Source of the DNA: a virus
DNA length: 23,917 nucleotides
Virus record (IMG/VR): IMGVR_UViG_3300032116_001306
Location: 1 to 23,917 of that record
Direction: 5' to 3' (one strand)
The notes beneath the pieces were generated by a model. It saw only the letters and a program-made list of their open reading frames with translations, ran no database searches and was not told the origin of the DNA. A program made the translations under genes and the position numbers. This document shows, piece after piece, positions 7,723 through 23,064 of this stretch (position 1 is its first letter; every line of letters starts with the position of its first letter).

Positions 7723-7977
7723 TCAGCAGTTCCATGCACGAAGCGATTTGTTGATCCGCGAGTTGGGGTCGTTGGCGGTCTTGGCGCTCGTAAGTTTGCG
7801 CTTCATACCCGACATCCGGGCACAGAATGACTTCTTACGAGCCCCACCCTCGGGTTGAGGACGCTTCAGACCCGGCTTACCCGGATTGGCACGGTTGTAG
7901 GAAGCCCTGCCTTTGGCGTTCAATCCGCCAGCAGGATTCTTACCCTCCTTGCGTTGCCACGCAGGAGTTTTAGCCAT
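7723..7977 (-). CDS. DUF6321 family protein
   Basis: The 84-aa protein has the family's diagnostic pieces in order: AWQRKEGKNPAGGLNAKGRA, KKSFCARMSGMKRKL, then NDPNSRINKSLRAWNC at the C-terminus. This matches the domain of unknown function DUF6321, found in phages and some bacteria as a stand-alone basic protein. Length is as expected for the family. Its start lies inside the end of the previous gene (8-nt overlap). The conserved Cys at the very end is present. No biochemical role is known; gene order puts it with virion and holin-like genes. Confidence 0.85.
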   Translation of the reverse strand: MAKTPAWQRKEGKNPAGGLNAKGRASYNRANPGKPGLKRPQPEGGARKKSFCARMSGMKRKLTSAKTANDPNSRINKSLRAWNC

Positions 7978-8275: not shown

Positions 8276-8297
8276 CCCGAATCTCCTGTAATGGAAG

Positions 8298-8316
8298 AAG
8301 GGGGCTTAACGCCCCC
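8298..8316 (-). terminator. Possible weak intrinsic terminator
   Basis: A GGGGGC / GCCCCC stem with a 5-nt loop lies just after the 75-aa gene stop on the minus strand. It is followed by TTCTTCC, a poor U-tract. It may attenuate rather than stop transcription. Confidence 0.5.
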
Positions 8317-8325
8317 CACGAACTC

Positions 8326-8553
8326 TTACAGAGTCAGGGTCGTGTACAGCGGGATGTACTTGGTCGTCGCGCCGATCTTGACCGGGAGATAACCCTTCTG
8401 GTCAGTACCGACAACACCCGAAGCGACACTGCCCGTCGTCAGGATGCTGCTGCCGATAACGAGGGTCGCCGTAGCGATAACCGTGGTGCCTTCGACGCTG
8501 CCCTCGAAGCCGTTGTCAGACTTAACCGGGCCGGAAAAAGTTGTACGTGCCAT
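8326..8553 (-). CDS. Small phage structural protein (75 aa)
   Basis: The product starts MARTTFSGPVKSDNGFEGSV, a beginning I recognise from short structural proteins located next to the capsid gene in aquatic phages. It then has Thr/Val/Gly-rich beta-like sequence ending KYIPLYTTLTL. A GAGGT ribosome-binding site lies 8 nt upstream. Its position between the homing endonuclease and a beta-rich structural gene, and flanking hairpins, suggest an abundantly made virion component such as a capsid decoration or fibre base. The homing endonuclease probably separated it from the capsid gene. Confidence 0.65.
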   Translation of the reverse strand: MARTTFSGPVKSDNGFEGSVEGTTVIATATLVIGSSILTTGSVASGVVGTDQKGYLPVKIGATTKYIPLYTTLTL

Positions 8554-8598
8554 TGTAAATACCTCACATGCGAGTCAAGCACACCAGTCTGCATGTCG

Positions 8599-9564: not shown

Positions 9565-9597
9565 ATGTATCTCCGCTACAAATAGAACGAAGACCGT

Positions 9598-9626
9598 AAA
9601 CTACACGCTGTGGGCGGTTTCGTCAA
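9598..9626 (-). promoter_or_regulatory. Possible promoter for the homing endonuclease
   Basis: TTGACG (9626-9621) and TAGTTT (9603-9598) are separated by 17 bp just downstream of the capsid terminator and about 35 bp before the endonuclease start. The -10 box is poor, so this is tentative. Confidence 0.4.
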
Positions 9627-9629
9627 GAC

Positions 9630-9654
9630 AAAAAGAAAGGGGCCTTTCGGCCCC
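9630..9654 (-). terminator. Intrinsic terminator after the major capsid gene
   Basis: Read on the minus strand, GGGGCC-GAAA-GGCCCC forms a 6-bp all-GC stem with a GAAA loop and is followed by TTTCTTTTTGTC. It sits about 40 bp after the capsid gene stop. It should limit read-through into the homing endonuclease. Confidence 0.85.
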
Positions 9655-9695
9655 CTTCCCAATCAACGTAAAGTGTTGATTTTACAGCGCTTTTA

Positions 9696-10604
9696 TCAGG
9701 ACGAACCCGGCGAACCGAACATGCCCAGAGGATCAGACCACCCGAACGAGTAACGCTCACGGCTCTTATACCTGACGTTACCAGTATCGAAATCTCCGTC
9801 CATTGAGTTCTGGAGCGGAGTACGGACAAAGTGCTTCATGCCGTTCGGAACGTCGGTCGTAAGGAACCAAGCGTTCGTGTCCGTCAAGAAGTGGTTGACC
9901 GTATAGCCTTCCGGAATCGACCCCATCGCCTTGAGAGCGTTGATGTCGTTGTCCGCCGTCGCCACACGCAGTTCCGTATCGAGGAGTCGCTTCGCAGTGA
10001 ACATCAATGCCGGGGGCACGATGAGTTTGCGAGGCTTCGCCGCGATGAGGAGTCCACGCTCGTCGGTCCAACCAGCGATCTGAATAACCGCAGCCTCAAG
10101 CGAAGTTTCGTTGAGGTCCGAGGCCGTCAGACGGTTGCTGTTGGAGCCGCCCGAGACAAGCGGGTGATCCGCCGCGAACAGGGCCTTGCCGTCACCACCA
10201 ACGTAGTTGGACGAGAAGCCGTTGTTCAGGACAGAAGCCGCCTTGACCTGCTTCGTGTACGCCATGGCGCGAGCAAGAGCCTTCGTATAACGCTTGCTGA
10301 GCGAGTCGTACAGGTTGTCTTCAACCGCTTCTTCCGTGATGGAGAAGCCGAGAGCGATGGTCTCGTGGCTGTAACGAGCAGTCCACGCTTCCTGTGCGTT
10401 GTCATACGCAATCGCAGCACCTTCGGCCTTTACCGGAGCGGCGCTGAAACCAGAAAGTTTGGTCTCTTCTTCAAAGGAACGCTCGGAGGTCTCAGTCTCG
10501 TAGATCTCCTTGTGCTCCTCACCATATTGCTTGTACTCAAGGCCGAACAGGGCGTTCAAACCCGGCAGGAGTTCCTTAAGTAATTGTGCACGTGAAATAG
10601 CCAT
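9696..10604 (-). CDS. Major capsid protein, Mu gpT-like
   Basis: The 302-aa protein shows the arrangement of the Mu-like major head subunit gpT family. A charged N-terminal helix (EYKQYGEEHKEIYETETSER) is followed by SITEEAVEDNLYDSL and a helix ending with a conserved LFAADHPLVSGG (about 142-153). Later come LIAAKPRKLIVPPALMFTAK and a beta-rich C-terminus with SDPLGMFGSPGSS. This family adopts the HK97 fold and builds the icosahedral shell. Length is close to the family norm. A GGGGAG site precedes the ATG. A strong terminator lies just downstream and a scaffold gene upstream, as expected for a capsid gene. Confidence 0.88.
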   Translation of the reverse strand: MAISRAQLLKELLPGLNALFGLEYKQYGEEHKEIYETETSERSFEEETKLSGFSAAPVKAEGAAIAYDNAQEAWTARYSHETIALGFSITEEAVEDNLYDSLSKRYTKALARAMAYTKQVKAASVLNNGFSSNYVGGDGKALFAADHPLVSGGSNSNRLTASDLNETSLEAAVIQIAGWTDERGLLIAAKPRKLIVPPALMFTAKRLLDTELRVATADNDINALKAMGSIPEGYTVNHFLTDTNAWFLTTDVPNGMKHFVRTPLQNSMDGDFDTGNVRYKSRERYSFGWSDPLGMFGSPGSS

Positions 10605-10621
10605 TTCTTAGAACTCCCCTA

Positions 10622-11287
10622 TTAAATGCCGAGCGGGTTGTAATAAGCGTGGCCACCTTCAACCACACCCGAAACACCCGTGGTATACGGGGCATTGAAC
10701 TTAACAATGACTTCGGGGTAGTAGGTGGTACCGCCTGAAACAAACGCCGTGTCTTCAACAACGTCAACGATACGCATCGGCAGAGACCGGGTGGTCGCAA
10801 CCGACGACAGCAGGAGGCCCCGCTGCGAGTCGTTCGTAACAGTGCTGAGTGCCTCATCAACGAGGGCGACGTTCGCACCAATATCCTCGTACGTGAACCC
10901 ACTCGTCGTGGAGACGTTCAAAGACGCCGAAACGCCCACAGCCTTGAACAGGGTGTCCGGATCATCAGCCACGTACGCCGTAACGAACGTGCCGGACTTC
11001 ACCGAAGTGCCCGAAATCCAAGCCTGCGAGTAGGTCGGCTGACCCGTCACGCTGGAGACAAACGAGCAGCCCAAGAACACACCGGCAAAACCGGCGGTCG
11101 GAGCAGTCGTCGTCGAGGTGGAAACAGAGATGGTGCCGCTTGAGGTCAACTGAACCGGATCGCCGTAGCCAATGCTCGAAGCACTGGACGCAATACGACG
11201 CTGGCGCGTGGCCCCGGCAAACACCTGCCCGCCGATCAGATTGACCGGCTTCAAGCCATACGGCTTGTCAACAGTAGGATATGCCAT
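10622..11287 (-). CDS. Head decoration-like structural protein (221 aa)
   Basis: The product starts MAYPTVDKPYGLKPVNLIGG, followed by VFAGATRQRRIASSASSIGYGDPVQL. This beginning resembles a class of capsid-adjacent proteins of aquatic phages. The rest is Ser/Thr/Val-rich and probably beta-structured, ending VVEGGHAYYNPLGI. A GGAG ribosome-binding site lies before the ATG. It is immediately upstream of the major capsid gene, and together they would be produced in high amounts. A role in capsid stabilisation or decoration is likely but not shown by any motif. Confidence 0.65.
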   Translation of the reverse strand: MAYPTVDKPYGLKPVNLIGGQVFAGATRQRRIASSASSIGYGDPVQLTSSGTISVSTSTTTAPTAGFAGVFLGCSFVSSVTGQPTYSQAWISGTSVKSGTFVTAYVADDPDTLFKAVGVSASLNVSTTSGFTYEDIGANVALVDEALSTVTNDSQRGLLLSSVATTRSLPMRIVDVVEDTAFVSGGTTYYPEVIVKFNAPYTTGVSGVVEGGHAYYNPLGI

Positions 11288-11306
11288 TAGTTACTCCAAA
11301 AGAAAG

Positions 11307-11756
11307 TTATTTACCCTTGCCAAACGAGACCGTAGTCTTTCTCTCGTTAAAGAGCGGCATACGCTCGTCGTTTAGCCTCATAAAACTGTTGTCCACAGAC
11401 TGAATCTGAGCCTGAGCCTGCTTGGCGTAATAATCATCACGCTGCTTCATCAGTTCAGTTGGAGCCTTGCAGAGCAACAGCCCGCCGATTTCGATGTTCC
11501 CTTTGAATCGGGAGTTCGGGTCGGCTTGTAGCATCAGTTTGGGCTGGTCTTCGGCCTTCACAGGCTCCCAACCTTCCCGAAATTTTGCAGACGTATTAGA
11601 GGGATCGGGTTGACCCATAATACTGGTCCGGATCCAGCGAAATACCCAACCATCCTGCGGCTCCGGTTCAGGGAGCGTTTGGGGCGGGGTCCACGCCATT
11701 TTGCGTTGTGCGGATTCTCGATTTTCGAGTTCGCGTGCAAGTCTATTCTCAGCCAT
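11307..11756 (-). CDS. Conserved virion-module protein (149 aa)
   Basis: The protein has a Pro-rich start (WTPPQTLPEPEPQDG) leading into GWVFRWIRTSIMGQPD and REGWEPVKAEDQPKL, a pattern I recognise in many aquatic phages between scaffold and capsid genes. A later helical part contains LMKQRDDYYAKQAQAQIQSV. It is small and charged without enzyme motifs. A GAGG site overlapping the scaffold gene's end precedes the ATG. It may be a head completion or assembly protein; the family has no assigned function that I know of. Confidence 0.65.
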   Translation of the reverse strand: MAENRLARELENRESAQRKMAWTPPQTLPEPEPQDGWVFRWIRTSIMGQPDPSNTSAKFREGWEPVKAEDQPKLMLQADPNSRFKGNIEIGGLLLCKAPTELMKQRDDYYAKQAQAQIQSVDNSFMRLNDERMPLFNERKTTVSFGKGK

Positions 11757-11757
11757 T

Positions 11758-12744
11758 TTAGTTAGCCTCCAGTTTGAAAAGTTCTCGTGCGTACTGCTCG
11801 TTGCTCAGTCCCAGTTTCTTGGCGATAGCAACTTGAGTCGGTGTCAGGCGGACCTGACGCGGCGCGGTTCCCCGCGTTACCGGAGCCACTACATTGGCTG
11901 GTTTAGTGCGAGCAGGCTTTTCGTCCTGTCTCGTTTGAGTCGGCCTCTCCTCGGCTACATCTTCGTTGAAGTAGTCAGGGAAACGCTTCTTCATAGTCGC
12001 GTTAACTCGGTCGTAGTAATCGTCGCTTCGCGGATCTACCCCAGACCGGACCAATTTTTCATGCAGTCCCAAGGCGAGGGCGGTCATTTCCTCGTCGGTG
12101 CCAAACCACGAATTTTTCTCGCGCCATGCTTCTGCTTTTGGATCCGCAGGCGGAGATGCCGGGGGCACTGGGTACTGTTGAGTCGGTTGTACTACCAATT
12201 CCTCTGGTTGTAAAGAGGGTTGGAAATTCTCAAGTTGTTTTATACGGAACTTGGCTTCGGTTAATGCTTCTTGCGCTTCGGCAATTTTCTCCGCATCTCC
12301 CGCTTCATAAGCCTGCTTTAGCCGCTCCTTCGACGTAATCAGGTCGTTGCTTGCGGCTTTACTGACTTCCTGAAAATAAACTCGCTCTCCGTTGCCCAAT
12401 CGTCGCTTTAACTGCTGAATCTCATTCTCACGGGCACGAATCTCATTTTCACGGATTACCGCAAAGCGGATGGCTTCTTCCTTTTCGCGCTGGGCGCGTT
12501 CCTTCTCACGACGCTCGTCGTGCCAGACTTTCTTCATCTGGGAGAGGCGCTTTTTAACCTTGTCGGAATACTCCTCAAGGTCGTCCTTCTCCAACTCCTC
12601 TACCATGTCTTTAGGAAGAGGCTTACGGCCCCTGTCCTCGGGAGGAGTGTCGTCTATTACCTCAACTTTTAGGTCTTCCTCCACAGCGGAAGGCTTTTCC
12701 TTTTCAACTTCGTCAGGAAATTTAAACTCTTCTTGCTCAGCCAT
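11758..12744 (-). CDS. Scaffold-like head assembly protein
   Basis: The 328-aa product is highly charged. An acidic N-terminus (about 1-60) leads to a long predicted coiled coil (about 60-175, with runs such as RREKERAQREKEEAIRFAV). A Pro/Gln-rich linker (about 175-205) follows, then a helical region and a C-terminal module VRLTPTQVAIAKKLGLSNEQ. Such an acidic, coiled-coil protein directly before the capsid genes is the usual place and composition of a phage scaffold, which templates procapsid assembly and is then lost. An AGGAG site lies 8 nt before the start. No protease motif is present. Confidence 0.7.
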   Translation of the reverse strand: MAEQEEFKFPDEVEKEKPSAVEEDLKVEVIDDTPPEDRGRKPLPKDMVEELEKDDLEEYSDKVKKRLSQMKKVWHDERREKERAQREKEEAIRFAVIRENEIRARENEIQQLKRRLGNGERVYFQEVSKAASNDLITSKERLKQAYEAGDAEKIAEAQEALTEAKFRIKQLENFQPSLQPEELVVQPTQQYPVPPASPPADPKAEAWREKNSWFGTDEEMTALALGLHEKLVRSGVDPRSDDYYDRVNATMKKRFPDYFNEDVAEERPTQTRQDEKPARTKPANVVAPVTRGTAPRQVRLTPTQVAIAKKLGLSNEQYARELFKLEAN

Positions 12745-12755
12745 GATTTACTCCT

Positions 12756-13133
12756 TTATGCGCGGCGAATGCCACGGGGGTCTTGCACGACAGCCTCAAC
12801 GGTGTCGTCGTTAATGATGCGGAACTCCCTGCCGTGGATGACCACGCGGGTGCCTGAATACGGACGGGTCAAGACAAAATCACCTTCCTTGCACCAAGGG
12901 CCAGTCGGAAAGCGTTCTTTGTCGGCATAACACTGATCACCCATCTTGACGACGAACAAAACCACGGTGGTCTGCTCCTCGACTCGTTTGGTGTCATCTG
13001 CTTTGACGATACCGCCCTCAAACTCTTCTTCTACGTGCGGGACTGCACATAGCATCCGGTAGCCTTTCGGTTCCGGTAGGAGTTTGGCTTTAGCGGCCTC
13101 CTCCTGCGTCTTCTCAACGTTGATATTACTCAT
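12756..13133 (-). CDS. GroES-like co-chaperonin
   Basis: The 125-aa product resembles the 10-kDa chaperonin family. The EFEGGIVKADDTKR segment (about 37-50) matches the mobile loop that contacts GroEL. The C-terminal stretch CKEGDFVLTRPYSGTRVVIH with GREFRIINDDTVEAVV (about 81-116) matches the family's final beta strands. The central region is longer than in GroES. In phages such a protein (compare T4 gp31) works with the host GroEL to fold the capsid protein. Two adjacent ATGs are possible starts; the second has a GGAG 7 nt away. It lies between portal and scaffold genes, in the head-assembly operon. The call rests on motif recognition. Confidence 0.72.
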   Translation of the reverse strand: MSNINVEKTQEEAAKAKLLPEPKGYRMLCAVPHVEEEFEGGIVKADDTKRVEEQTTVVLFVVKMGDQCYADKERFPTGPWCKEGDFVLTRPYSGTRVVIHGREFRIINDDTVEAVVQDPRGIRRA

Positions 13134-13320
13134 CATCGCGCTCCAAGCGTTTTGCAAGGTCTTTGATGTGGTTCCGTGCGAGGTCAAGACCCTGTAACGC
13201 CCCGCAAAGACGTTTGTATTCACCCTCATCCAATTTGCCTTGAATCAAGGTATCAACAATCAACATGCGCTCTTCCTGCAACCTCGTGTCAAGGTACTCC
13301 AGAGCGTTGGCATAACTCAT
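13126..13320 (-). CDS. Small helical phage protein (64 aa)
   Basis: The protein is a charged, predicted all-helical chain (MSYANALEYLDTRLQEERML...KRLERDDE) with no recognised domain. A strong AAAGGAG ribosome-binding site lies in the last codons of the portal gene, and its end overlaps the co-chaperonin start. Its conserved-looking position between portal and co-chaperonin suggests an assembly function. It might bind the portal's coiled-coil C-terminus or act as an assembly factor; there is no direct evidence for either. Confidence 0.65.
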   Translation of the reverse strand: MSYANALEYLDTRLQEERMLIVDTLIQGKLDEGEYKRLCGALQGLDLARNHIKDLAKRLERDDE

Positions 13321-13323
13321 TTA

Positions 13324-15873
13324 TTACTCCTTTCTGGGGGGTTGCGAACGCTGCTGCGCAGTCATTCGTTGGAGATCGGCAGACTCTTTGGCCTTGCCCA
13401 TCTCAATACCAAGGCGGACTCCCTCCATCTGTTGTTTGGCAGATAGCGCAGCCTTGTCTTTCTGGATGTCCACACCGAGACGCGCTGCCTCAAGTTGTTG
13501 ACGCCCAGAGATTTCTGCTTTGCGAAGTTCCAACTCGTCGGCTTTGGCAGCGGCATCCATGATGTCTTTCTGCTGTTTGCGTTGGATCTCGGCCTGCTGG
13601 ATCTGTGCTTCGATCTGCATCTGCTGCGCTTTGGTCTGCGCTTGAAGTTGCTTGATCTGCAGGTCCATCTGTTGCATCTGGATAAGCGGGTCTTGCTGTT
13701 GCTGCTGAGCCTGTTGCATCTGCATCTCGGCCTGATCTTTCTGCAAGACTCGTGCGGCTGCAGCGGCAGCCAACTGCGACAACTGCGCCTCGAACTCCGG
13801 CGGCAAGTCGTACTCTTCCATGTCGTTCTGCGGCAGGGGCGGCAAGGCTGCGCCAAGTTGCTTCTCGATCTCGCGGCGATACTGGAAGGCCACGTGCTCC
13901 ATGATGTGCGCTTGAAGTGATGCAGTAATCTGCTGCGCCATCGGGTTTTGCCCAATCTGCTGCGCAATCTTGGGGTCTTGCCCAAGGGCCATGTGCACCG
14001 CGATGTGTGCCTCGTGATCCTGATACATGAAGGCTTTAAGCGGCTTACCCGTCATGGCGTCCATGTTTTCCGTCACGGGGTCACGCGGCTTGGCGTCATC
14101 TGCAAGGGGCACGATCTTGTCAGCATTCTTCACGCCGAGCGTTTCAATCATCTGCCGATGGAGATAGGGGAGATCGTAAAGTTGCGGAGCGGTTTGCGAG
14201 AGTTGGAGCACCGCTTGGTATTGCACAACCTTCTGCGACATCGTGGCGGCATTGGGATCGGCCACGGGAATAACATCAACGTCATCGTAATCCGACTTCT
14301 TGGCCTTACGATCTCCCACTTCTGGTTCGTACGAATACTCTTCGGGAGTATTGTCTCGAATAATTCCTGCAAGCAGTTTGAATTCCTGCTTCATCGCGTA
14401 GTACACGCGAGCCTGCACGGCGGTCATGACTTTGAGGACACGCTCCAATACCGCAAGCGTGGTGCCCACCGGGGCCTGTGCCGACATATCGCTGATCTTG
14501 AGATCGGATACGGCAGCAAAGCGGCGTCCTTCCTCGACCACCTTGTCCATGAGCATGGCAAGGGTCTGGCTCGGTTCTTTGTACGGCAGCGGCAGGATGT
14601 TGTCCCGCACTGCGCCAGAGGGTACGTCTACGTCTCGCCACTCGCCGGGGGCGATAGGGGTGTCATCTCCCTTGATACGGAGACCGCGTGATTTGAGACC
14701 ACCCGGAAGATTGCTAAGAGTTCCTGCGTCGATAAGTTGGCGAAGGAGGGAGGTTGCCGCTTTAGAGTGGCCGCCGATAAGGTGGATAAGTCCGAAATAA
14801 TAGAAGCCAAAGCCGGGGATATACCCGTAATGCACAAAGTGCTGTCGCTTCTGCTTGAGTTTGTCATCTTCTTTCCAATTCCGCCGTATGGCTAGAATCG
14901 TTCCCGTCCCCTTCTCAATCGTCACTACGTACGGTAGTGCAATGCCCGTCTCATTATTGTCTTTATCAACGTCCGGATATCCCGGCAGATCAATGTTGAC
15001 GTGCATCTCAAGCAACTGGAACCGATCGTCCATGCTGGCTGAGAAGCCTTGATCCTCTGCTTTTTGCTTCTCTACCTCGTCCATGACCCGCATGGGTTCG
15101 CCTAGGTCCACATCGCGGTAGAAGCCTGCGTACTGCAGTTTGATCAGTTCGTTCTTCGTCTTCCGCATCCGGTGCGTTACGCGGTCTGCGGTCTCAAGGT
15201 TCGGTGCGCCATAGGGCACGATGATGTCTTCGGCTGGGATGTACACCGCCGTCTGACGATCAAGCGAAGGATCGAAATACACCTTCTTGAATGCGTTACC
15301 TGCAAGAGCAAGGCTAAGCAGAAGCCGCTCGTGTTCCGGGCGATACTCCTTCATCACCTCGGTCAACTGGTAGTTCATGTCATCCGCAACGCGGATAGCC
15401 GAGTCACGCTTGTCTTGGGTCTCCTTGCCGATGATCTTCGTCTTGACCGGCCCCATCGCGGGGAAAGTCTCCATGATCGTCTCGGACTGGAACTTGACCG
15501 CTGATTCCATCAGAAGCGGATGAAAGACTCCGCAAGCACCGGGCCACGGCTCGGTACGTTCCTCGTACCGAATACCCAAAATCTTCAAGCCTTTAATGTA
15601 CGTATCAAGCCAATCCTTACGTGAGGAGAGGTCTTGCTCATAGTTACCGATCAACTCACCCGCAAGCGAGCCTAGTTCGTTCTCGCTCATGTACTCTGCA
15701 AGGTTGGCGTCGAAGTCTTCGGCACGAGGTTCCTCTTTGCCGAGTTCAATCATCATGCCATCAACGCCTATGCGGACCTCTTCAGGGTCCACAATTTCAA
15801 TCTCAATCGGCTCTTGGGGAGCAAGTGCTTCTAAACCCAACGGAGCCTCGTACAAACTTTTATCGACGGCCAT
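13324..15873 (-). CDS. Portal protein
   Basis: The 849-aa product has the layout of large podovirus-type portals. An N-terminal region contains GNYEQDLSSRKDWLDTYIKG, and a WPGACGVFHPLLMESAVKFQ stretch follows (about 110-130). The wing and stem regions contain VYIPAEDIIVPYGA and FVHYGYIPGFGFYYFGL. The last ~150 residues (about 700-849) are Gln/Ala/Lys-rich coiled coil, including a near-duplicate QQLEAARLGVDIQ / QQMEGVRLGIEMG, likely the barrel projecting into the head. The portal is a dodecamer through which DNA is packed by the terminase. It follows the large terminase with a short gap and has AGGAG before the ATG. P22 portals are similar in size. Confidence 0.88.
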   Translation of the reverse strand: MAVDKSLYEAPLGLEALAPQEPIEIEIVDPEEVRIGVDGMMIELGKEEPRAEDFDANLAEYMSENELGSLAGELIGNYEQDLSSRKDWLDTYIKGLKILGIRYEERTEPWPGACGVFHPLLMESAVKFQSETIMETFPAMGPVKTKIIGKETQDKRDSAIRVADDMNYQLTEVMKEYRPEHERLLLSLALAGNAFKKVYFDPSLDRQTAVYIPAEDIIVPYGAPNLETADRVTHRMRKTKNELIKLQYAGFYRDVDLGEPMRVMDEVEKQKAEDQGFSASMDDRFQLLEMHVNIDLPGYPDVDKDNNETGIALPYVVTIEKGTGTILAIRRNWKEDDKLKQKRQHFVHYGYIPGFGFYYFGLIHLIGGHSKAATSLLRQLIDAGTLSNLPGGLKSRGLRIKGDDTPIAPGEWRDVDVPSGAVRDNILPLPYKEPSQTLAMLMDKVVEEGRRFAAVSDLKISDMSAQAPVGTTLAVLERVLKVMTAVQARVYYAMKQEFKLLAGIIRDNTPEEYSYEPEVGDRKAKKSDYDDVDVIPVADPNAATMSQKVVQYQAVLQLSQTAPQLYDLPYLHRQMIETLGVKNADKIVPLADDAKPRDPVTENMDAMTGKPLKAFMYQDHEAHIAVHMALGQDPKIAQQIGQNPMAQQITASLQAHIMEHVAFQYRREIEKQLGAALPPLPQNDMEEYDLPPEFEAQLSQLAAAAAARVLQKDQAEMQMQQAQQQQQDPLIQMQQMDLQIKQLQAQTKAQQMQIEAQIQQAEIQRKQQKDIMDAAAKADELELRKAEISGRQQLEAARLGVDIQKDKAALSAKQQMEGVRLGIEMGKAKESADLQRMTAQQRSQPPRKE

Positions 15874-15883
15874 CTAAATTCTC

Positions 15884-17398
15884 CTAGTAATACCCTTCTC
15901 GCTTACGCTTGAAGTACCGTGTCGGTTCTGGCTCATCGCTCGCCAATCTCAAGAAGCCGCCCTGCCGATACCGCAGCAACGCTTGGGTCATCGAGTCTAC
16001 CAAGTCATCGTGCTCGCCAGAGGGAAAACTCGCTACTTCCTCGACCAGTTCTTCAGCCCAGTGAGTATTAGGAACCCAAACGCGCCCAGATGCAAACATG
16101 TCTGAAACAGCATTCAAACGGGCAATTTTGTCGTTTCCCCTGCTTGGGGTGAACTCCTGTACCGGGATGCCCATGGCACGCAGTTCAAATATGAGGGGGC
16201 TGCCTGCTGCTTTAGCCTCAATGATCATGCTGTCAGGGTTCCAGTACTTGTACTCCTCAAACGCCGTTTCCTTTAGTTCCGGAAACTCCATGCGCTTCTT
16301 AAAAGCGTTGAGAAGGATGATGTTGGACTGGTTTTTCCCGGTGTCATCCGGGTGTTCAAACACTCCCCACGTGGTGCAGGCTGAGTAGTCAGCCCGTTCT
16401 GACTTGAGAAACGCCGTATCCCACGACTGGATGATGTAACTACAGAAAGGTACGTTGTCTGCGTCCCAAACTCGCCACCAATCACGTTTGATGATGGCCG
16501 ATACGTCAGAAGTAGGCTCCTGCTGGTACTGAGCCATCCACTTGCCATTGGGCAGTTCCTGCCGCAAGGCTTCCAGTTCCTCGATGCTCCAAAACTCGGG
16601 CCAAAGTGCCTTATTTGACGGCAAAATAGCCGGAAATTCGATGACTTCCCACTCTTCTCCACTACGCTGAGCGGCTGCTTTGAGCACTTGACCCGTCAAA
16701 TCCTTCTTGGACCAGCGAGTCATAACAACCACAATAGCCCCACCCGGCTGGAGACGCTGCCGAGGCCCGGAGGTGTACCATTCGTACGTCTTGTCGTAGA
16801 CTTCGGGGTTAGTTTCAGCGAGAGTAGCCTCCTGCTCGCTGTGCGGGTCGTCAATAATGAGCAAATCCGCGCCTTTACCGGTCACGGCACCGCCTACACC
16901 GATAGCAAAGTACTCTCCAGCGTAGTTTGTAGCCCATCTACCGGCTGCTTTTGAGTCCGCTTGCAGCGCAACTTGCGGAAAAATGTCTTTATAGCGGTCA
17001 GAATCGACCAAATTACGCACTTTTCGGCCAAAACCCACCGCTAATTCGGCTGTATGGGAGGTCTGGATGATCTTTTTGTCCGGATATTTGCCTAAAAACC
17101 AACTAGGCAGCAGGTAAGACGCAAATTCCGACTTGGTATGCCGTGGCGGCATGTTAATAATGAGGCGTTTTGTCTCGCCAGAAGCCACTCGCTCAAACGC
17201 ACGGGCCATTTTCTCGTGATGCCGCCCATGAATGAAATTAGGCCACACGTATTTGACGTAGGCCATGAAGTCCGTCTTGGCTTTTTCTTGCGTTCCTGCC
17301 TTTCTTGCTTCAGCCACCAACTGTCCAACGCGCTGCTGGAGTTCTGGGGGCATGTTCGGAAGCCGTTTTTCAACGTCACGGAGCAGGTTCTGATCCAT
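15884..17398 (-). CDS. Terminase large subunit
   Basis: The 504-aa protein contains a packaging ATPase and a nuclease domain. ATPase signatures are a Walker A-like PPRHTKSE (84-91), Walker B LLIIDDPHSE (179-188) and motif III VVVMTRWSKKDLTG (223-236). The nuclease part shows the RNase H-like acidic triad SWDTA (D327), IIEAKA (E394) and HDDLVDS (464-469). The enzyme hydrolyses ATP to drive DNA into the procapsid through the portal and cuts the concatemer. Length is typical. The start lies inside the end of the small-subunit gene (23-nt overlap), with a modest ribosome-binding site. All key residues are present. Confidence 0.95.
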   Translation of the reverse strand: MDQNLLRDVEKRLPNMPPELQQRVGQLVAEARKAGTQEKAKTDFMAYVKYVWPNFIHGRHHEKMARAFERVASGETKRLIINMPPRHTKSEFASYLLPSWFLGKYPDKKIIQTSHTAELAVGFGRKVRNLVDSDRYKDIFPQVALQADSKAAGRWATNYAGEYFAIGVGGAVTGKGADLLIIDDPHSEQEATLAETNPEVYDKTYEWYTSGPRQRLQPGGAIVVVMTRWSKKDLTGQVLKAAAQRSGEEWEVIEFPAILPSNKALWPEFWSIEELEALRQELPNGKWMAQYQQEPTSDVSAIIKRDWWRVWDADNVPFCSYIIQSWDTAFLKSERADYSACTTWGVFEHPDDTGKNQSNIILLNAFKKRMEFPELKETAFEEYKYWNPDSMIIEAKAAGSPLIFELRAMGIPVQEFTPSRGNDKIARLNAVSDMFASGRVWVPNTHWAEELVEEVASFPSGEHDDLVDSMTQALLRYRQGGFLRLASDEPEPTRYFKRKREGYY

Positions 17399-17981
17399 CT
17401 TCCGAGTCTGCTTCGTTGTTGTTTAGTCCAAGTTCTTCATCCAAATCAAGTTCGGCTAGCGAAACAGGCTGATCCTCACTTACAACCGCATAATCCCCGT
17501 CGTACAACTCAAGAGTTTTGCGCAGTTCCGTCTCGATATCCTTAACCGTACGTTGTGTGACGGTGACATCTACACGCTCGGAGAAAAGCCCAACTCCCGA
17601 CACCTTGCCAAGCAGTTCTAGTGCCTTCAAACGGGTGCGGGCATCCGGGTCTTCAGCCTCAAGTATCAACTTGTTGGTGACGTAATTACGCAGGCGACGA
17701 TGTACGTCCAGAACTTCCCGGTCGTATTCAGACAGGATCGAATTAATGTGCTTAATTGCACCGGGGGTTGTTGTTTTTGCGGGAGGTAACTCGCCGCTAT
17801 TTACCGCCAAATGAGACTCGATCCGGTCGCTGTCCGTGACTTCGACCTCAAGCCCCTGCCTCTCCAACTCCTCAACTGTGTTGAGTAGAGCCTCGGCTTT
17901 TGCACGGAAGTCTTCTAGTTCTTCCGGTGATGTATCAAAAGGGAACGGAATCCCCAGTTCTGGCGTTGCAACAACCGGCAT
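17376..17981 (-). CDS. Terminase small subunit-like protein
   Basis: The protein has a helical N-terminal half and a conserved-looking core: HINSILSEYDREVLDVHRRL then RTRLKALELLGKVSGVGLFS and VDVTVTQRTVKDIETELRK. It ends in an acidic tail (LDLDEELGLNNNEADSEDG). Small terminase subunits recognise phage DNA and load the large subunit. Position directly before the large subunit with overlapping ends supports the role. The frame is open much further upstream, but that part lacks protein-like composition; the ATG at 17981 lies about 20 nt after a plausible promoter start point. The ribosome-binding site is weak. The final classification would need a profile search. Confidence 0.75.
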   Translation of the reverse strand: MPVVATPELGIPFPFDTSPEELEDFRAKAEALLNTVEELERQGLEVEVTDSDRIESHLAVNSGELPPAKTTTPGAIKHINSILSEYDREVLDVHRRLRNYVTNKLILEAEDPDARTRLKALELLGKVSGVGLFSERVDVTVTQRTVKDIETELRKTLELYDGDYAVVSEDQPVSLAELDLDEELGLNNNEADSEDGSEPAP

Positions 17982-18008
17982 ATTGGTGCCTATGGTGTCG
18001 TTGCGCGG

Positions 18009-18036
18009 AGTATACAGAACATTTCTAAAAATAGAA
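18009..18036 (-). promoter_or_regulatory. Candidate promoter for the virion operon
   Basis: Minus strand: TATACT (18014-18009) is a good -10 box; TTCTAT (18036-18031), 16 bp away, is a poor -35. Transcription would start about 20 bp before the small terminase ATG. The -35 box overlaps an inverted repeat TTCTA-AAAA-TAGAA (18023-18036), which could be an activator or repressor site, consistent with a late promoter needing activation. Confidence 0.45.
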
Positions 18037-18222
18037 GTATCCGTGTGGTGGGCAGGGGGCCCAAATGAATGACGGGGGGTGTTCCTATAAACATGGGGTG
18101 GGGGGTCTTGTGCCAAAAAATGGTGATTGGCTGCGCAGATCATAGAGTACAGAAGATGCGCGGGACTCCTAAATACATTTGGGCTGGTACGGGTACGGTG
18201 GGGTCGGGCTGCGCCCATTTTG

Positions 18223-18236
18223 TAAACACGTGTTTA
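18223..18236. promoter_or_regulatory. Operator palindrome, site 1
   Basis: TAAACACGTGTTTA is a perfect 14-bp palindrome that ends three bases before the -35 box of the first early promoter. It is the only one of the six repeats in the window with perfect symmetry. Confidence 0.7.
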
Positions 18237-18239
18237 TAC

Positions 18240-18268
18240 TTGACATTCCTACAATAATTTGAGATACT
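18240..18268 (+). promoter_or_regulatory. Early promoter P1
   Basis: TTGACA (18240-18245), a 17-bp spacer and GATACT (18263-18268) form a sigma70-type promoter. Its TACTTGACATT core is shared with the promoter at 20697. It would transcribe the 169-aa gene and is adjacent to operator site 1. Confidence 0.75.
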
Positions 18269-18298
18269 ATAGGCGTCGAGTGAGTGATGACCCACACA

Positions 18299-18312
18299 TA
18301 AACAACTGTTTA
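18299..18312. promoter_or_regulatory. Operator-like inverted repeat, site 2
   Basis: TAAACAACTGTTTA (one mismatch from perfect symmetry) lies in the 5' leader, 5 nt before the AGGAG ribosome-binding site of the 169-aa gene. Confidence 0.65.
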
Positions 18313-18330
18313 CAACTAGGAGTGCAAAAA

Positions 18331-18840
18331 ATGATTCAGTCAAACATCAAAAAGGCCGTAACCGACGCGATCCGCGCTGAGGGTACAGTCGCTAAAAAAT
18401 GGGCCGAGGTTGGTTCGGTTGTCCGTGGTGAATATGAGACACGTGAGGCCGTCGAAGCAATCCGCGCCGAGTTCCTTGACGAGGTTATATATCCCGCGAT
18501 GGGCGATGATTCGCTCCGAGTGATCCGCGCCGAGTTACCGCGCAAAGGCACGAAAGATTGGAACGCTGCCAGCAGCGAACAACAGGCCGCGTGGTCGCAG
18601 TTGAACGACGCCAAGAAAACGGTTCGCGGTAAGGGTTCGGTCTACTTTGGTCGCGTGGTTGAGTACGCATTCCCGAGCGATACCGACAAGGGGCCGACTC
18701 AGGCGCGTGATCTTAAAACACGTTTGAACGAGGAACTCGCCGCGCTCGTGAAGGCCTGCCAGAAAACCGAGTCCGCGTCGTTCGATATTGGTGCGACAAT
18801 CCGCGCCCTCGAAGCAACCCTCGCCGTGGTCAACAAGTAA
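18331..18840 (+). CDS. Unknown early protein (169 aa)
   Basis: The product starts MIQSNIKKAVTDAIRAEGTV, and the start is fixed by AGGAGTG nine bases upstream; the frame is open further but lacks a ribosome-binding site. The sequence is mostly helical, with KKWAEVGSVVRGEYETREAV and ELPRKGTKDWNAASSEQQAA segments and a C-terminal helix ALEATLAVV. I recognise this kind of protein from aquatic phages but know no function. It is the first gene of the rightward module, directly under promoter P1, and a strong terminator follows it, so it forms a single-gene transcription unit. That suggests an abundant early factor, possibly DNA- or host-interacting. Confidence 0.75.
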   Translation: MIQSNIKKAVTDAIRAEGTVAKKWAEVGSVVRGEYETREAVEAIRAEFLDEVIYPAMGDDSLRVIRAELPRKGTKDWNAASSEQQAAWSQLNDAKKTVRGKGSVYFGRVVEYAFPSDTDKGPTQARDLKTRLNEELAALVKACQKTESASFDIGATIRALEATLAVVNK

Positions 18841-18857
18841 TCCGACCCGCTCCGTAC

Positions 18858-18892
18858 CGCTAGGCTGCAAGGGCAGCCTAGCGCTTTTTTTT
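18858..18892 (+). terminator. Strong intrinsic terminator
   Basis: CGCTAGGCTGC and GCAGCCTAGCG form a perfect 11-bp stem with a 4-nt loop (AAGG), followed by C and eight T. It ends the transcript of the 169-aa gene 18 nt after its stop. Confidence 0.95.
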
Positions 18893-19312
18893 GCGCGAGT
18901 CAAGCGTGTTTTTGCTCTTTTTTTATCGCAACTATCATCGCAGAGGCTCAGCATCCGCAGAGTGGTCATGCTTTGTTTCATTTGTTTCGTTTTGTAGCAG
19001 CATGAAGATACAAGCCTAAGTCATTGATTTTATTAGGAATACATATCCTTTTTTATATATTGTTTCAATGTTTCATAAAATAATACCCCCTAAGGAAATT
19101 TTACTTTTTTCGCTCAGGGAACTGCGACCGGCTGCGCCTTCCTGCAAGTTCGGTAAGACCGTGAAAAACGTGAAACAATGCAACAAACGGAAATTTAACG
19201 TCCTAACACATTGATTCAAAAGGCGTCTGCACGAAAATCCTACTCCAAAACAATGCATTACAAGTGAAACAAGCAGCCCAAAACGCCCACTAATTCACCA
19301 AATCCCAACATG
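18893..19312. other. AT-rich non-coding region with TTGTTTCA repeats, candidate origin
   Basis: About 420 bp hold no convincing gene. TTGTTTCA occurs at 18973-18980 and 19060-19067, its reverse complement TGAAACAA at 19171-19178 and 19265-19272, and near-copies follow the first two directly (TTGTTTCG at 18982, ATGTTTCA at 19068). An AT-rich stretch with ATCCTTTTTTATATATTG lies between about 19020 and 19085. Iterated protein-binding sites in both orientations next to an easily melted tract are typical of replication origins or complex promoters. No initiator gene is visible here, so this is a proposal. Confidence 0.45.
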
Positions 19313-19326
19313 TAAACACATGTTTA
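19313..19326. promoter_or_regulatory. Operator-like inverted repeat, site 3
   Basis: TAAACACATGTTTA, flanked by TG and TAC as in site 1, lies about 13 nt before the GGAG ribosome-binding site of the zinc-finger gene. No clear promoter is seen just upstream. Confidence 0.65.
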
Positions 19327-19346
19327 TACAACCCACGGAGTGCAAC

Positions 19347-19559
19347 ATGACAAACGACTACCAATGCGACCGCTGCCAAGCCCCACTAAACCGGCACCGC
19401 TACGAGATCGGCTACACCACGTGTATGCCATGCGGCGAGAAAGCCGCGAAGCGGCGAAGGCACACCATCATTCCTCTACATAAATCCTGCTACATGGCAG
19501 TCAGTCCGGAGGCTGCGCGGGACTTGGTGAAGCATCTGAATAAACGAGCCAACACATAA
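19347..19559 (+). CDS. Small C4 zinc-finger protein (70 aa)
   Basis: Cysteines at C7-x2-C10 (QCDRCQAPL) and C26-x2-C29 (GYTTCMPCGEK) form a four-cysteine zinc finger. The GYTTCMPCGE part recalls the DksA/TraR C4 finger, but the long N-terminal coiled coil of those proteins is absent. A basic AKRRRHTIIPLHKS stretch follows, then a short C-terminal helix. The ATG is chosen because GGAGTGCAAC directly precedes it; the frame is open a few codons further upstream through the operator. The stop overlaps operator site 4. It could be a small regulator of host RNA polymerase or a nucleic-acid-binding protein; neither is proven. Confidence 0.7.
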   Translation: MTNDYQCDRCQAPLNRHRYEIGYTTCMPCGEKAAKRRRHTIIPLHKSCYMAVSPEAARDLVKHLNKRANT

Positions 19560-19570
19560 ACAACTGTTTA
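19557..19570. promoter_or_regulatory. Operator-like inverted repeat, site 4
   Basis: TAAACAACTGTTTA begins with the TAA stop of the zinc-finger gene and lies 6 nt before the AGGAG ribosome-binding site of the next gene. Confidence 0.65.
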
Positions 19571-19587
19571 CGAAACAGGAGAACACC

Positions 19588-19869
19588 ATGAACTACATAA
19601 ACCAAGACGACGAACTGGAGAACGAGTCAGGACTGCCTGAGCCAGACGAGTTCGACATCCTGCAAGAACTTTATACGCAGGAACGGATGGCTAACGACTT
19701 CCTGATTGAAAGACTCAAAGCCCTAGCCTCTGCCCAACCCGAGGAAGCCCTGCAAGGCATCCGAGACATCCTGACCGATGGCTATGCGTACTTTGGGGAG
19801 CAGCGACCTTGGGATCGCCCGAGCATCACATCCCTACTGCCAAACAACCAACAACTTGACCTGTTCTAG
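19588..19869 (+). CDS. Small acidic protein with C-terminal QLDLF clamp-binding-type motif
   Basis: The 93-aa protein is acidic in its first half (DDELENESGLPEPDEFD) with a helical middle (LQELYTQERMANDFLIERLK). Its last five residues are QLDLF (89-93), which matches the canonical peptide used by bacterial polymerases and repair proteins to bind the beta sliding clamp. AGGAG lies 8 nt before the start. It precedes the 273-aa unknown gene by 9 nt and its stop overlaps that gene's AGGAG site. A protein docking on the host clamp could redirect or inhibit host replication; the motif is seen, the binding is inferred. Nothing else identifies it. Confidence 0.7.
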   Translation: MNYINQDDELENESGLPEPDEFDILQELYTQERMANDFLIERLKALASAQPEEALQGIRDILTDGYAYFGEQRPWDRPSITSLLPNNQQLDLF

Positions 19870-19878
19870 GAGAGCAAC

Positions 19879-20700
19879 ATGTCCGCGACTTGTACGTACC
19901 AACAAATCAAAGAGCAATACGACACCACCAAACCCATTCGAGGACGCAGCGATGATGTCCGACCTGCGGGTAAGCGCCGACGAGATTGGGAACGTGTAGT
20001 CAAGACCGAGCATGGCTACGCCTACCAGATGCATGGGACTAACTGCGTCGAATTCACGGAGGAAAAACTAATACTCCGCTCAGGTGGATGGACGACAGTC
20101 GGTACGGGTAAGTTCATCAACGACTATGCACCCGTTGCTTGTGGCAAGAGATACAACGCACTCTGGGTTGGGATTGATAAGACTTGGGCGTGGGCTAATC
20201 CGCCGACGCACGACCACCCGACAGAACAATGGCTATGGATTCCCATCCCTGCCAAGGGCGAGATCACATTCACATGGGACGAGACACGGCAAAGATACGT
20301 GCTAGATCCCACAAAGATACAAGTGCGTACCGTCAACCGGAAACGGGCGAACGAGTCCCGCAAGCGCGTGAAACCCCTGCTCGACTACTGCAAAGCCATA
20401 CTCAAACTGAGCGACGGCGAGGTGCGACGGGAAGATATCTACGGGAGACGAGATGACCTGCGCCCGCACGACATATTAAAAGCCCACACCGACGAGCAGA
20501 TGCTGACGGCGTTCTACGCCTTGCTACGTGCAACCCAAGCGACATGGCAGGACTGGCAGCGCGGGGTGTATGCATACGGAATCGCATCAGTACAGAGAAC
20601 TTTGTACAAGATGCACGATGCGGGATCACCGGAGATCTACGACCACGAGTGGGTGGATCCAAGCAGCAAGATGCCAACCAACCATGTCGGATATACTTGA
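19879..20700 (+). CDS. Conserved phage protein of unknown function (273 aa)
   Basis: The protein has a basic N-terminal part (RPAGKRRRDWERVVKTEHGY). A mixed alpha/beta region with KLILRSGGWTTVGTGKFIND and Trp-rich ALWVGIDKTWAWANPP follows, then a helical C-terminal half with RKRANESRKRVKPLLDYCKA and further helices. I recognise the VKTEHGYAYQMHGTN...GGWTT pattern as a type found in aquatic phages, but it has no assigned role. AGGAGAG overlaps the previous stop and precedes the ATG. Its last codons contain promoter P2 (the TGA stop is part of TTGACA). No enzyme motif is clear. Confidence 0.7.
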   Translation: MSATCTYQQIKEQYDTTKPIRGRSDDVRPAGKRRRDWERVVKTEHGYAYQMHGTNCVEFTEEKLILRSGGWTTVGTGKFINDYAPVACGKRYNALWVGIDKTWAWANPPTHDHPTEQWLWIPIPAKGEITFTWDETRQRYVLDPTKIQVRTVNRKRANESRKRVKPLLDYCKAILKLSDGEVRREDIYGRRDDLRPHDILKAHTDEQMLTAFYALLRATQATWQDWQRGVYAYGIASVQRTLYKMHDAGSPEIYDHEWVDPSSKMPTNHVGYT

Positions 20701-20725
20701 CATTGTTGTAATAGTTTGGTATCAT
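20697..20725 (+). promoter_or_regulatory. Promoter P2 for the MoxR-VWA operon
   Basis: TTGACA (20697-20702), a 17-bp spacer and TATCAT (20720-20725) make a near-consensus sigma70 promoter. The TATACTTGACATT run is identical to that of P1. The -35 box overlaps the stop codon of the 273-aa gene. Confidence 0.8.
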
Positions 20726-20735
20726 ATAACAAATG

Positions 20736-20754
20736 GGGCTAAGTGAGTTAGCCC
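20736..20754 (+). promoter_or_regulatory. Leader hairpin near the P2 transcript start
   Basis: GGGCTAA and TTAGCCC form a perfect 7-bp stem with a 5-nt loop (GTGAG), within a few bases of the predicted start of transcription from P2. It is not followed by a T-tract, so it more likely protects or regulates the mRNA 5' end than terminates. Confidence 0.55.
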
Positions 20755-20770
20755 ACCGACGAGAGACCTA

Positions 20771-20784
20771 TAAACAACTGTTTA
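20771..20784. promoter_or_regulatory. Operator-like inverted repeat, site 5
   Basis: TAAACAACTGTTTA, identical to sites 2 and 4, lies 6 nt before the AGGAG ribosome-binding site of the AAA+ gene. Confidence 0.7.
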
Positions 20785-20803
20785 CAAGAGAGGAGAGTGC
20801 ATT

Positions 20804-21865
20804 ATGTTAACCAGTTCCGTATCGCTTGAAGAGTTTGCATTGAGTGTCGCCACGGCAGGTAACAAGGTCTGCTTCATTGGCGAGGGTGAGATGGGCATTG
20901 GCAAGTCAGCCATGCTCTACAAGATTGCCGAGATGTTACCGACACATCTCCCTGCGTACATCGACTGTACGTTGCTAGACCTAGGTGACTTTGCCCTGCC
21001 GTTCACGGTCGAGGAGAACGGTATGAAGGTGACTAGGTTCGCGCCGAATGCGCGGTTCAAGTTCCACATGGGTAAGCCAGTCATCATCATGCTCGATGAG
21101 ATCGGCAAGGCTATGAAGTCGGTGAAGAATGTCTTGCTCACTCTGATGAACGAGGGGCGCATCGGTGATCACTACCTGCCCAAAGGTAGCATCGTGTTCG
21201 GCACCACTAACTTGATGGGCGAGGGTGTCGGAGACTTGTTGGAGAGGCATGCTCGCAATCGTGTCTGCATGGTACGCATCAGGAAGCCAAGTGCCGACGA
21301 GTGGATCGAGAACTACGCTATCCCGAAGGGTCTGTTGCCCGAGGTCATCGCATGGGTCAAGCAGTTCCCGCATTGCATGTCATCGTTCGATGACCCGTCA
21401 CAACGTGACAATCCGTATATCAACCAACCGACCAAGGCAGGGCAGGGTGCGTGTGTGACTCCAAGATCTTTGGAGAAAGCGTGTTACATCGCACAACACA
21501 GATCGACTCTGGGTAATAACGTGACCATCGCAGCACTAGCCGGTGTGATCGGTGAGAGCGCAGCCCGAGACATGCAAGCGTTCTTCACAGTCGCAGACAA
21601 GTTGCCAACGTGGGAGGCCATCATCCACTCGCCTGACACGGCGAAACTCCCCGACGATGCAGTAGCCAAGTGCATCTGTGTGTATGGCGCACTTACACGT
21701 GTCGAGCGAGACACACTCAGTAAGTGGATGGCGTACGTCAGTCGCATGGACAAGGAGTGGCAAGCCCTGTTCGCCAAGTCGGTGATGAAGTCCCCCAAGC
21801 AATCGTTCTGTGTGATGAACAAAGACTTCAAGGACTGGGCGTTGGCTAACGAGTGGCTTTTCTAA
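20804..21865 (+). CDS. MoxR-type AAA+ ATPase
   Basis: The 353-aa protein has Walker A GEGEMGIGKS (26-35), Walker B VIIMLDEI (93-100, D98/E99), sensor 1 FGTTN (132-136) and a likely arginine finger region LLERHARNRV (145-154). A helical C-terminal part follows. It belongs with MoxR/CbbQ-like ATPases, which work with VWA-domain partners to remodel or activate target proteins. The partner is encoded directly downstream, with operator site 6 spanning the gene junction. AGGAGAG lies before the ATG, and promoter P2 and operator site 5 are upstream. Annotations such as CobS are common for this type but do not apply, because no cobalt-chelation genes are present. Confidence 0.85.
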   Translation: MLTSSVSLEEFALSVATAGNKVCFIGEGEMGIGKSAMLYKIAEMLPTHLPAYIDCTLLDLGDFALPFTVEENGMKVTRFAPNARFKFHMGKPVIIMLDEIGKAMKSVKNVLLTLMNEGRIGDHYLPKGSIVFGTTNLMGEGVGDLLERHARNRVCMVRIRKPSADEWIENYAIPKGLLPEVIAWVKQFPHCMSSFDDPSQRDNPYINQPTKAGQGACVTPRSLEKACYIAQHRSTLGNNVTIAALAGVIGESAARDMQAFFTVADKLPTWEAIIHSPDTAKLPDDAVAKCICVYGALTRVERDTLSKWMAYVSRMDKEWQALFAKSVMKSPKQSFCVMNKDFKDWALANEWLF

Positions 21866-21875
21866 ACAATGTTTA
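21863..21875. promoter_or_regulatory. Operator-like inverted repeat, site 6
   Basis: TAAACAATGTTTA has the same 6-bp arms with only one central base. It begins with the TAA stop of the AAA+ gene and lies 6 nt before the AGGAG site of the VWA gene. Confidence 0.6.
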
Positions 21876-21894
21876 CAAAAGAGGAGAGTGCAAC

Positions 21895-23064
21895 GTGAAC
21901 AAACTAACAGCCGAGCAGCGCGTACAACGAGCGCACGTAGCGTTGATGAACGATCCAAAATATTGCCTGTTCTCTGGGATATTTATGATCGGTAAGGTCG
22001 AGGTGCGTGACGACATTCCGACAGCATGCACTAACGGACGAGATGTTTTATACGGGCGCAAGTTCGTGGACAAACTCACCGAGCCAGAGTTGCGTGGGTT
22101 GGTGCTGCATGAGGCCAAGCACAAATCGTTCAGGCATCTGACCATTTGGAAACATCTGTACGAGCAGGACGCACGACGGGCGAACATGGCCTGTGACTAC
22201 GTGATCAATCTCATGATCCATGACTCCGACCCCGAGGGTAAGTTCGTCAAGTTGCCCGAGGGTGGGTTGCTCGACGAGAAGTACCGAGGCATGGATGCAG
22301 CGACGGTGTTCAAGTTGTTGGAGAACAAGAGCGGAGGTGGCGGGGGAGACCAAGGCGACGGTGAGTCGGGTGGTGGGTTCGACGAGCATGACTGGACGGG
22401 TGCCGAGGAGATGTCGCAGTCCGAGCGTGAAGCACTGGGTAACGAGATCGACCAAGCACTACGACAAGGCGCAATACTGGCAGGGAAAATGAGCGGCAAT
22501 GTGCCACGTGAGATCACCGATGCACTGACACCGAGAGTGGACTGGCGTGAAGCGTTGCGTGACTTTGTGACTTCACATTGCGCGGATCGTGACGAGAGTA
22601 CATGGCGTAGACCAGCCCGTAGGTGGATCGCACAAGACGTTTACATGCCATCAAGTATCAGCGAGACCATCGGGCGCATCGTGGTGGGCATCGACATGTC
22701 TGGGTCTATCGGAGCGAACGAGATCGGTCAGTTCTTGGGTGAGTTGCGGTCTATCTGCGAGACAGTCAAGCCCGACGGCATAGACATACTGTATTGGGAC
22801 ACACAAGTGTGTCGGCATGAGCCATACGAGCGTGACCAGTTGGACTCACTCTTGCAATCCACTAAACCCATGGGTGGTGGCGGCACTGACCCGCAGTGCA
22901 TACCCGATTACATCAAGGCTAAAAGTATTACGGCTGAGTGCGCGGTAATACTTACTGACGGTTACGTGCATCGGTGGGGCGAGGGTTGGTCGGTGCCTGT
23001 GTTGTGGGCCATCACTACTCCAAACATCACGGCAGATGTCGGCAAGTCGGTGACGGTGCAATGA
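21895..23064 (+). CDS. Metallopeptidase-like/VWA domain protein, MoxR partner
   Basis: The 389-aa product has an N-terminal region with an HExxH-type zinc motif (LVLHEAKHKSFRH, H72-E73-H76) followed by an ACDYVIN segment (about 99-105), matching the DUF2201-type predicted metallopeptidase domain. A Gly/Asp-rich linker (about 146-165) leads to a VWA-like domain with a complete metal-ion site: DMSGS (267-271), T331 in GGGGTD and D355 in LTDG. Such proteins pair with MoxR ATPases. The start is a GTG preceded by AGGAGAGTGCAAC; upstream in-frame codons lack such a site and overlap the ATPase gene. Its stop overlaps the next gene by ATGA. Peptidase activity is inferred from motif only. Confidence 0.85.
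   Translation: MNKLTAEQRVQRAHVALMNDPKYCLFSGIFMIGKVEVRDDIPTACTNGRDVLYGRKFVDKLTEPELRGLVLHEAKHKSFRHLTIWKHLYEQDARRANMACDYVINLMIHDSDPEGKFVKLPEGGLLDEKYRGMDAATVFKLLENKSGGGGGDQGDGESGGGFDEHDWTGAEEMSQSEREALGNEIDQALRQGAILAGKMSGNVPREITDALTPRVDWREALRDFVTSHCADRDESTWRRPARRWIAQDVYMPSSISETIGRIVVGIDMSGSIGANEIGQFLGELRSICETVKPDGIDILYWDTQVCRHEPYERDQLDSLLQSTKPMGGGGTDPQCIPDYIKAKSITAECAVILTDGYVHRWGEGWSVPVLWAITTPNITADVGKSVTVQ

Follow-up and report, generated by a model that had tools for sequence, protein, structure and literature searches.

The closest described relatives of the system reported here are found in mycobacteriophages. Cluster A phages such as L5 and Bxb1 carry stoperators, sites of the Rep repressor that are present in many copies and whose consensus differs from branch to branch along with the repressor (PMC6550527). 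These sites are described as asymmetric and bound by a monomeric repressor (PMC9283540). Cluster K phages have start-associated sequences and their extended form (SAS and ESAS), inverted repeats with little support for mRNA hairpins and whose function is not known (PMC3203893). We analysed a 23917 bp IMG/VR virus record (IMGVR_UViG_3300032116_001306; "the window" is this whole stretch), in which a short palindrome, TAAACA-N1/2-TGTTTA, is repeated among the early genes. The arrangement looks like a many-site DNA switch worked by a phage-encoded regulator, similar to the immunity systems of temperate phages.

The palindromes are probably DNA operators of some phage-encoded regulator. A fuller version, which we favour with less assurance, is that the six copies in the window are double-stranded DNA operators through which a dimeric phage-encoded regulator would control the whole early block, at promoters and by roadblock. 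The best candidate is a small MarR-like protein, here called C25.

Leftward genes for terminase, portal and virion proteins occupy positions 1-18218 of the window, and rightward early genes start at 18331. All six copies lie within 18223-21875, exactly where an earlier note on this DNA had placed them. That note had also seen no full copy in the virion half, where equal frequency would have spoken against a role in the early genes; none is present in 1-18222 (0 expected from 100 dinucleotide shuffles). With up to three mismatches allowed, a single further weak site appeared in the window, which is chance level. The spacers are CG at 18223, AC at 18299, CA at 19313, AC at 19557 and 20771, and a single A at 21863. 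All six recur in G001, a near-identical contig of 43.5 kb, which has a seventh, intragenic copy at 10806.

The features of the early region are as follows.

18223-18236, no strand: palindrome 1, TAAACACGTGTTTA, a perfect dyad that ends 3 bp short of the -35 box of P1, the first early promoter.
18240-18268, plus strand: predicted sigma-70-type promoter P1 (TTGACA, 17 nt, GATACT), 10 of 12 matches, a consensus match only.
18299-18312, no strand: palindrome 2, TAAACAACTGTTTA, followed by a Shine-Dalgarno (SD) sequence, AGGAG, at 18318-18322 and ATG at 18331.
18331-18840, plus strand: first early gene, 169 amino acids, no Pfam match, with a strong terminator after it.
18858-18883, plus strand: hairpin resembling an intrinsic terminator, with a T8 tail, behind the first early gene; 11 pairs, 8 of them G-C.
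19313-19326, no strand: palindrome 3, TAAACACATGTTTA, followed by GGAG at 19337-19340 and ATG at 19347.
19347-19559, plus strand: 70-amino-acid protein with paired Cys motifs and weak zinc-ribbon-like matches under the Pfam cut-off.
19557-19570, no strand: palindrome 4, TAAACAACTGTTTA, its TAA being the preceding stop; AGGAG at 19577-19581.
20697-20725, plus strand: predicted promoter P2 (TTGACA, 17 nt, TATCAT) upstream of the AAA gene, 11 of 12 matches.
20771-20784, no strand: palindrome 5, TAAACAACTGTTTA, within the AAA gene's 5' leader; AGGAG follows at 20791-20795.
20804-21865, plus strand: MoxR-like AAA ATPase gene, the query for collecting relatives.
21863-21875, no strand: palindrome 6, TAAACAATGTTTA, with a 1-nt spacer and a TAA that ends the AAA gene; AGGAG at 21882-21886 and GTG at 21895.
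21895-23064, plus strand: DUF2201 putative metallopeptidase / VWA-like protein, the partner gene of the AAA ATPase (E 7.5e-28 and 2.6e-12).

Most local details given in the earlier note held on measurement. Site 1 is a perfect palindrome by a -35 box, ending 3 bp before the TTGACA at 18240. The copies at 19557 and 21863 supply the TAA stops of the genes at 19347-19559 and 20804-21865. At sites 2, 4, 5 and 6 AGGAG begins 5-6 nt past the palindrome (at 18318, 19577, 20791 and 21882), where 4-6 nt had been claimed; spacing at site 3 is looser, with GGAG 10 nt downstream. The GTGCAA-type leaders it described are found at some sites, but site 4 has AGGAG-aacacc-ATG.

The palindrome is conserved. 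Among relatives collected by the AAA ATPase gene, the closest ones have the same TAAACA arms, a variable spacer and mostly 4-12 copies, about ten being typical. A non-redundant set of 20 loci holds 149 perfect copies and 16 with one mismatch (spacers of 1 or 2 nt), where control motifs give 0.14 and 0.7, respectively. The TAAACA relatives inspected also retain a counterpart of site 1, ahead of the -35 box of their first early promoter. The copies are also confined to early genes, with 12 of 12 inside 9 kb in a 63 kb relative. In 19 contigs the local palindrome is limited to one early block of 6.2-11.6 kb, which is 11-20% of the larger contigs. Lack of conservation in related phages, which the earlier note had named as a ground for dropping the idea, is therefore not what is seen.

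Exact 15-mer matches over viral contigs number 110, mostly single copies outside the phage family, which we judge to be near chance for a collection of that size (our own estimate, with no computed control). Cultured phages gave no DNA match, and the AAA gene had no close protein match among them. Three phages related by their terminase, 023Pt_psg01, DSL-LC04 and HTVC027P, have the virion module in common with the group, but over the 50 kb inspected they show no such repeated palindrome. When 84,980 genomes of bacteria and archaea were scanned, four distant relatives came up, all in metagenome-derived bins.

More distant relatives of the phage lack TAAACA and repeat another palindrome instead, as found by de novo search. 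At least 10 unrelated palindromes occur across the phage group. They include ATTAACA-NN-TGTTAAT (core TTAACA-NN-TGTTAA), ATTAAAC-NN-GTTTAAT, GTTATCA-NN-TGATAAC and ATACTGTCAGACAGTAT, together with ATACTGTC-N-GACAGTAT, ATAATGTC-N-GACATTAT, TTTATACAC-N4-GTGTATAAA, TAAAAACGTTTTTA, TTTCTACAGTGTAGAAA and ACTAAA/TACTAA types. GGGTAC-NN-GTACCC or TGGTAC-N3-GTACCA is found in contigs binned with betaproteobacterial or unassigned genomes. Once extended, the palindromes of these other branches are mostly 15-17 bp long, and the range for the whole group is 13-17 bp. In the ATACTGTC branch, A predominates as the central base in one genome and T in another, a difference that may reflect copying of sites within a genome. 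L031 (5526-14825) differs from the other branches in that most of its GTTATC-N4-GATAAC copies are not followed by an SD and are apparently within coding sequence. The distant relative L254, which has GGGTAC palindromes, encodes next to its VRR-NUC gene a 230-amino-acid protein (14569-15261) with an N-terminal part resembling a helix-turn-helix (HTH) and a C-terminal part resembling sigma-70 region 4, as judged by eye.

The position of the copies fits a DNA site best. In L008 (9947), L009 (9945) and L029 (8387) the palindrome fills the spacer of the AAA-gene promoter, between TTGACW and TATAAT or TACAAT. In L017 and L024 it precedes the -35 of this promoter, and the window, L007 and L010 have it in the leader. 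Such a shift around the same promoter fits a DNA operator. Other copies are inside genes; one before the VRR-NUC gene is conserved within a small gene in G001 and G003. Among the 153 TAAACA copies with enough flanking sequence, 90 are followed by an SD and a start codon, and at least 26 are deep in an open frame with no SD. The phasing to ribosome-binding sites (RBS) noted earlier is thus real, but it belongs to a subset of copies and not to the element as such.

At the two predicted promoters, the regulator would prevent initiation or else affect the polymerase. Bound between or within genes, it would stand in the way of elongating RNA polymerase as a stoperator-like roadblock, and the frequent position just upstream of an RBS would then reflect the room available between tightly packed genes. 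Roadblock operators were one of three options in the earlier note; conservation, restriction to the early block and the promoter and intragenic copies make this option the best fit, while the roadblock action itself is something we infer, as are binding, dimerisation on DNA and repression.

Two further observations concern the surroundings of these sites. A hairpin, GGGCTAAGTGAGTTAGCCC (20736-20754), lies near the predicted start of the P2 transcript, and L007 and L010 have comparable hairpins ahead of their palindrome. Where the two gene blocks diverge, immediately ahead of palindrome 1, there is a G-rich stretch, GGTACGGGTACGGTGGGGTCGGG (18190-18222), with similar ones in many relatives; it may be part of a leftward element.

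C25 was chosen by comparing the small HTH genes common to the group. It is a MarR-like winged-helix protein of about 99 amino acids, encoded at 11512-11811 in G001 and 16121-16420 in G003; alignment to G001 places it 2.3 kb past the end of the window. Profile matches are to MarR/TcaR/SarA chains (E 6.7e-5 to a MarR-family chain), with single Pfam scores below the curated cut-off. The AlphaFold2 model, of the monomer, has a predicted local distance difference test (pLDDT) value of 92.5, and its nearest folds by Foldseek are MarR (1.9e-4) and MepR (4.7e-4, template modelling score 0.73). The predicted fold is accordingly of the MarR winged-helix type. Proteins of the MarR family act as a dimer on a palindrome of 16-20 bp.

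C25 is present in 19 of the 20 palindrome-bearing G-series contigs that reach its region, the exception being G011. Its gene tree appears to follow the palindrome rather than the core phylogeny. In the core tree (AAA, VWA and a third conserved protein), L028, with a TTTCTACA palindrome, pairs with L029, a TAAACA phage (support 0.82). In the C25 tree L029 is among the TAAACA phages (0.996) and L028 is elsewhere, while the tree of the neighbouring winged-helix gene C42 keeps the two together (0.915). Pairs with the same palindrome have an excess C25 identity of 0.049 after regression on core identity (permutation 0.0005). The neighbours C42 and VRR-NUC have no such effect (permutation 0.27 and 0.31). 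The recognition helix begins with Phe in 8 of 8 C25 proteins from TAAACA phages and in 0 of 27 others.

Several points weigh against this interpretation. For the operators, the strand asymmetry of the spacer (C 31 to G 5, GA 27 to TC 5, CC 18 to GG 7, CA 16 to TG 0, AC 12 to GT 1) is not predicted by a symmetric site. It is unusual for one dimer to accept spacers of both 1 and 2 bp (in rare copies 3 or 4), and roadblocks alone do not account for the tight RBS phasing. For C25, L057/G011 has six perfect TAAACA copies and no detectable homologue, and L054 of the same branch has palindromes with no C25 detected. Conversely, the complete-looking 61.9 kb relative L063/G014 has C25 and neither a repeated palindrome nor a Cro-like gene. 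The core grouping of L028 with L029 is only moderately supported, label permutation corrects for shared ancestry only in part, and the neighbour C9 has a small effect of its own (0.014, permutation 0.0055). With C25 absent from one palindrome-bearing branch, its link to the palindrome is supported but not proven. Taking covariation and exceptions together, we hold C25 to be the likeliest regulator by a slight balance of the evidence.

DNA operators could instead serve another phage regulator, such as a Cro-like 78-amino-acid protein or the second small winged-helix protein, C42; this we regard as unlikely. By occurrence the Cro-like protein fits: all palindrome-bearing contigs that extend to its gene encode it, G011 among them, and the palindrome-free G014 does not. 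It was rejected as the specificity factor all the same, since its recognition helix (SRxTVYxWF) is nearly constant across branches with unrelated palindromes. C42 was set aside too, being undetected in several palindrome-bearing branches and having a tree that does not follow the palindrome.

The second option of the earlier note, that RNA stem-loops just upstream of the RBS, bound by a protein or alone, set the translation of each early gene, is improbable. It would fit the distance between palindrome and SD, which among the flanked copies is tightly bimodal at 1 nt (32 copies) or 5-6 nt (37), as well as the asymmetry of the spacer relative to transcription. It would also suit the (A)TTAAC(A) branch, where the palindrome often encloses the SD, with AGGA as the spacer itself (ATTAAC-AGGA-GTTAATaaATG in L032, L036, L045 and L065); with the SD inside, the palindrome may have an additional effect on translation in that branch. 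Neither folding nor the type of mismatch in imperfect copies supports RNA control. The stems are weak, and the RNA folds of the window sites are no stabler than shuffles (z-scores 1.15 to -1.51). Among the 16 one-mismatch copies, not all independent, the RNA pair is broken in 13 and kept as G-U in 3, the commonest change being T to C in the left arm. Moreover, copies upstream of a -35, between -35 and -10 or deep in genes cannot affect an RBS.

Less probable still are activator or phage-specific promoter elements turning the early genes on, the third option. Site 1 is at roughly -46 of predicted P1, near the usual activator position, and the copy upstream of the first promoter is kept, as described above. 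However, the distance to the -35 varies from 3 to about 21 bp among relatives, some copies are in a promoter spacer or in genes, and most have no recognisable promoter. The promoters are already good sigma-70 consensus matches; adjoining the sites at variable distances, with many copies promoterless, they make a phage-specific promoter element unlikely. A role for the sites with a host protein, or in DNA replication, packaging or partition, is equally doubtful, even with no regulator common to all palindrome-bearing branches, because the palindrome differs between the closely related L028 and L029, its change tracks a phage gene tree, the copies are at gene starts across an 8 kb coding block with no single origin-like cluster, and the 22 contigs hold no ParA-type gene.

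As for lifestyle, Phage_integrase, Resolvase and AAA_31 (ParA-type) gave no match in these 22 contigs, some of which are fragments, with positive controls. Lytic growth of this uncultured phage group is the simplest reading. Among the virion genes of the window, an open reading frame at 8599-9564 resembles a GIY-YIG homing endonuclease, as judged by eye.

Dispersed operators with branch-specific sequences are known mainly in temperate phages, where they are the basis of immunity groups. The same arrangement in widespread aquatic phages with no detected lysogeny genes raises the question of what a lytic phage gains from diversifying such a switch, possible reasons being the timing of early shut-off or the exclusion of co-infecting relatives. 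Tentatively, this may be a lytic group with a many-operator repression switch of the early block, whose operator and regulator specificity diverges as in temperate immunity, with the operator fused to the SD in one branch; a first phage could then silence the early genes of an incomer with the same palindrome. The phage set provides natural regulator-operator pairs from which a specificity code might be read, and it has a bearing on the start-associated repeats, so far unexplained, of cluster K mycobacteriophages.

Finally, we compared the palindromes with known systems. One repressor with many operators across the early region or the genome is known from the CIB sites of phiC31 and the C1 operators of P1. 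Both are temperate phages with identified repressors, and the P1 sites are asymmetric. Like the palindromes, cluster A stoperators are many copies of a short site, some in promoters and most not, with a consensus that differs between related subclusters, there together with the repressor, and a proposed block to elongation. They differ in being asymmetric and in one orientation to transcription, whereas here the arms are near-perfectly palindromic and only the spacer is strand-biased. They number 20-30 per genome, against about 4-13 copies in one early block, and belong to temperate phages with an integrase or parABS, for which no counterpart was found in the 22 contigs. Their repressor is Rep, while the candidate regulator here is MarR-like. 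Cluster K ESAS are, like the palindromes, inverted repeats just upstream of the RBS, limited to the non-structural half and with a subcluster-specific consensus; they are conserved together with the downstream gene. Their arms are 17 bp long and imperfect, with a spacer of 4-13 bp, and they are tied to the 13-bp SAS, whereas the arms here are of about 6-8 bp and near-perfect, with a spacer of 0-4 bp. The 13-bp GGGATAGGAGCCC repeat of cluster K is at none of the palindrome sites, where leaders are of the AGGAGTGCAA type, and the palindromes, unlike ESAS, are also inside promoters and genes. The system thus departs from the defining features of both cluster A stoperators and cluster K ESAS, and we file it with neither, as a variant of dispersed-operator regulation.

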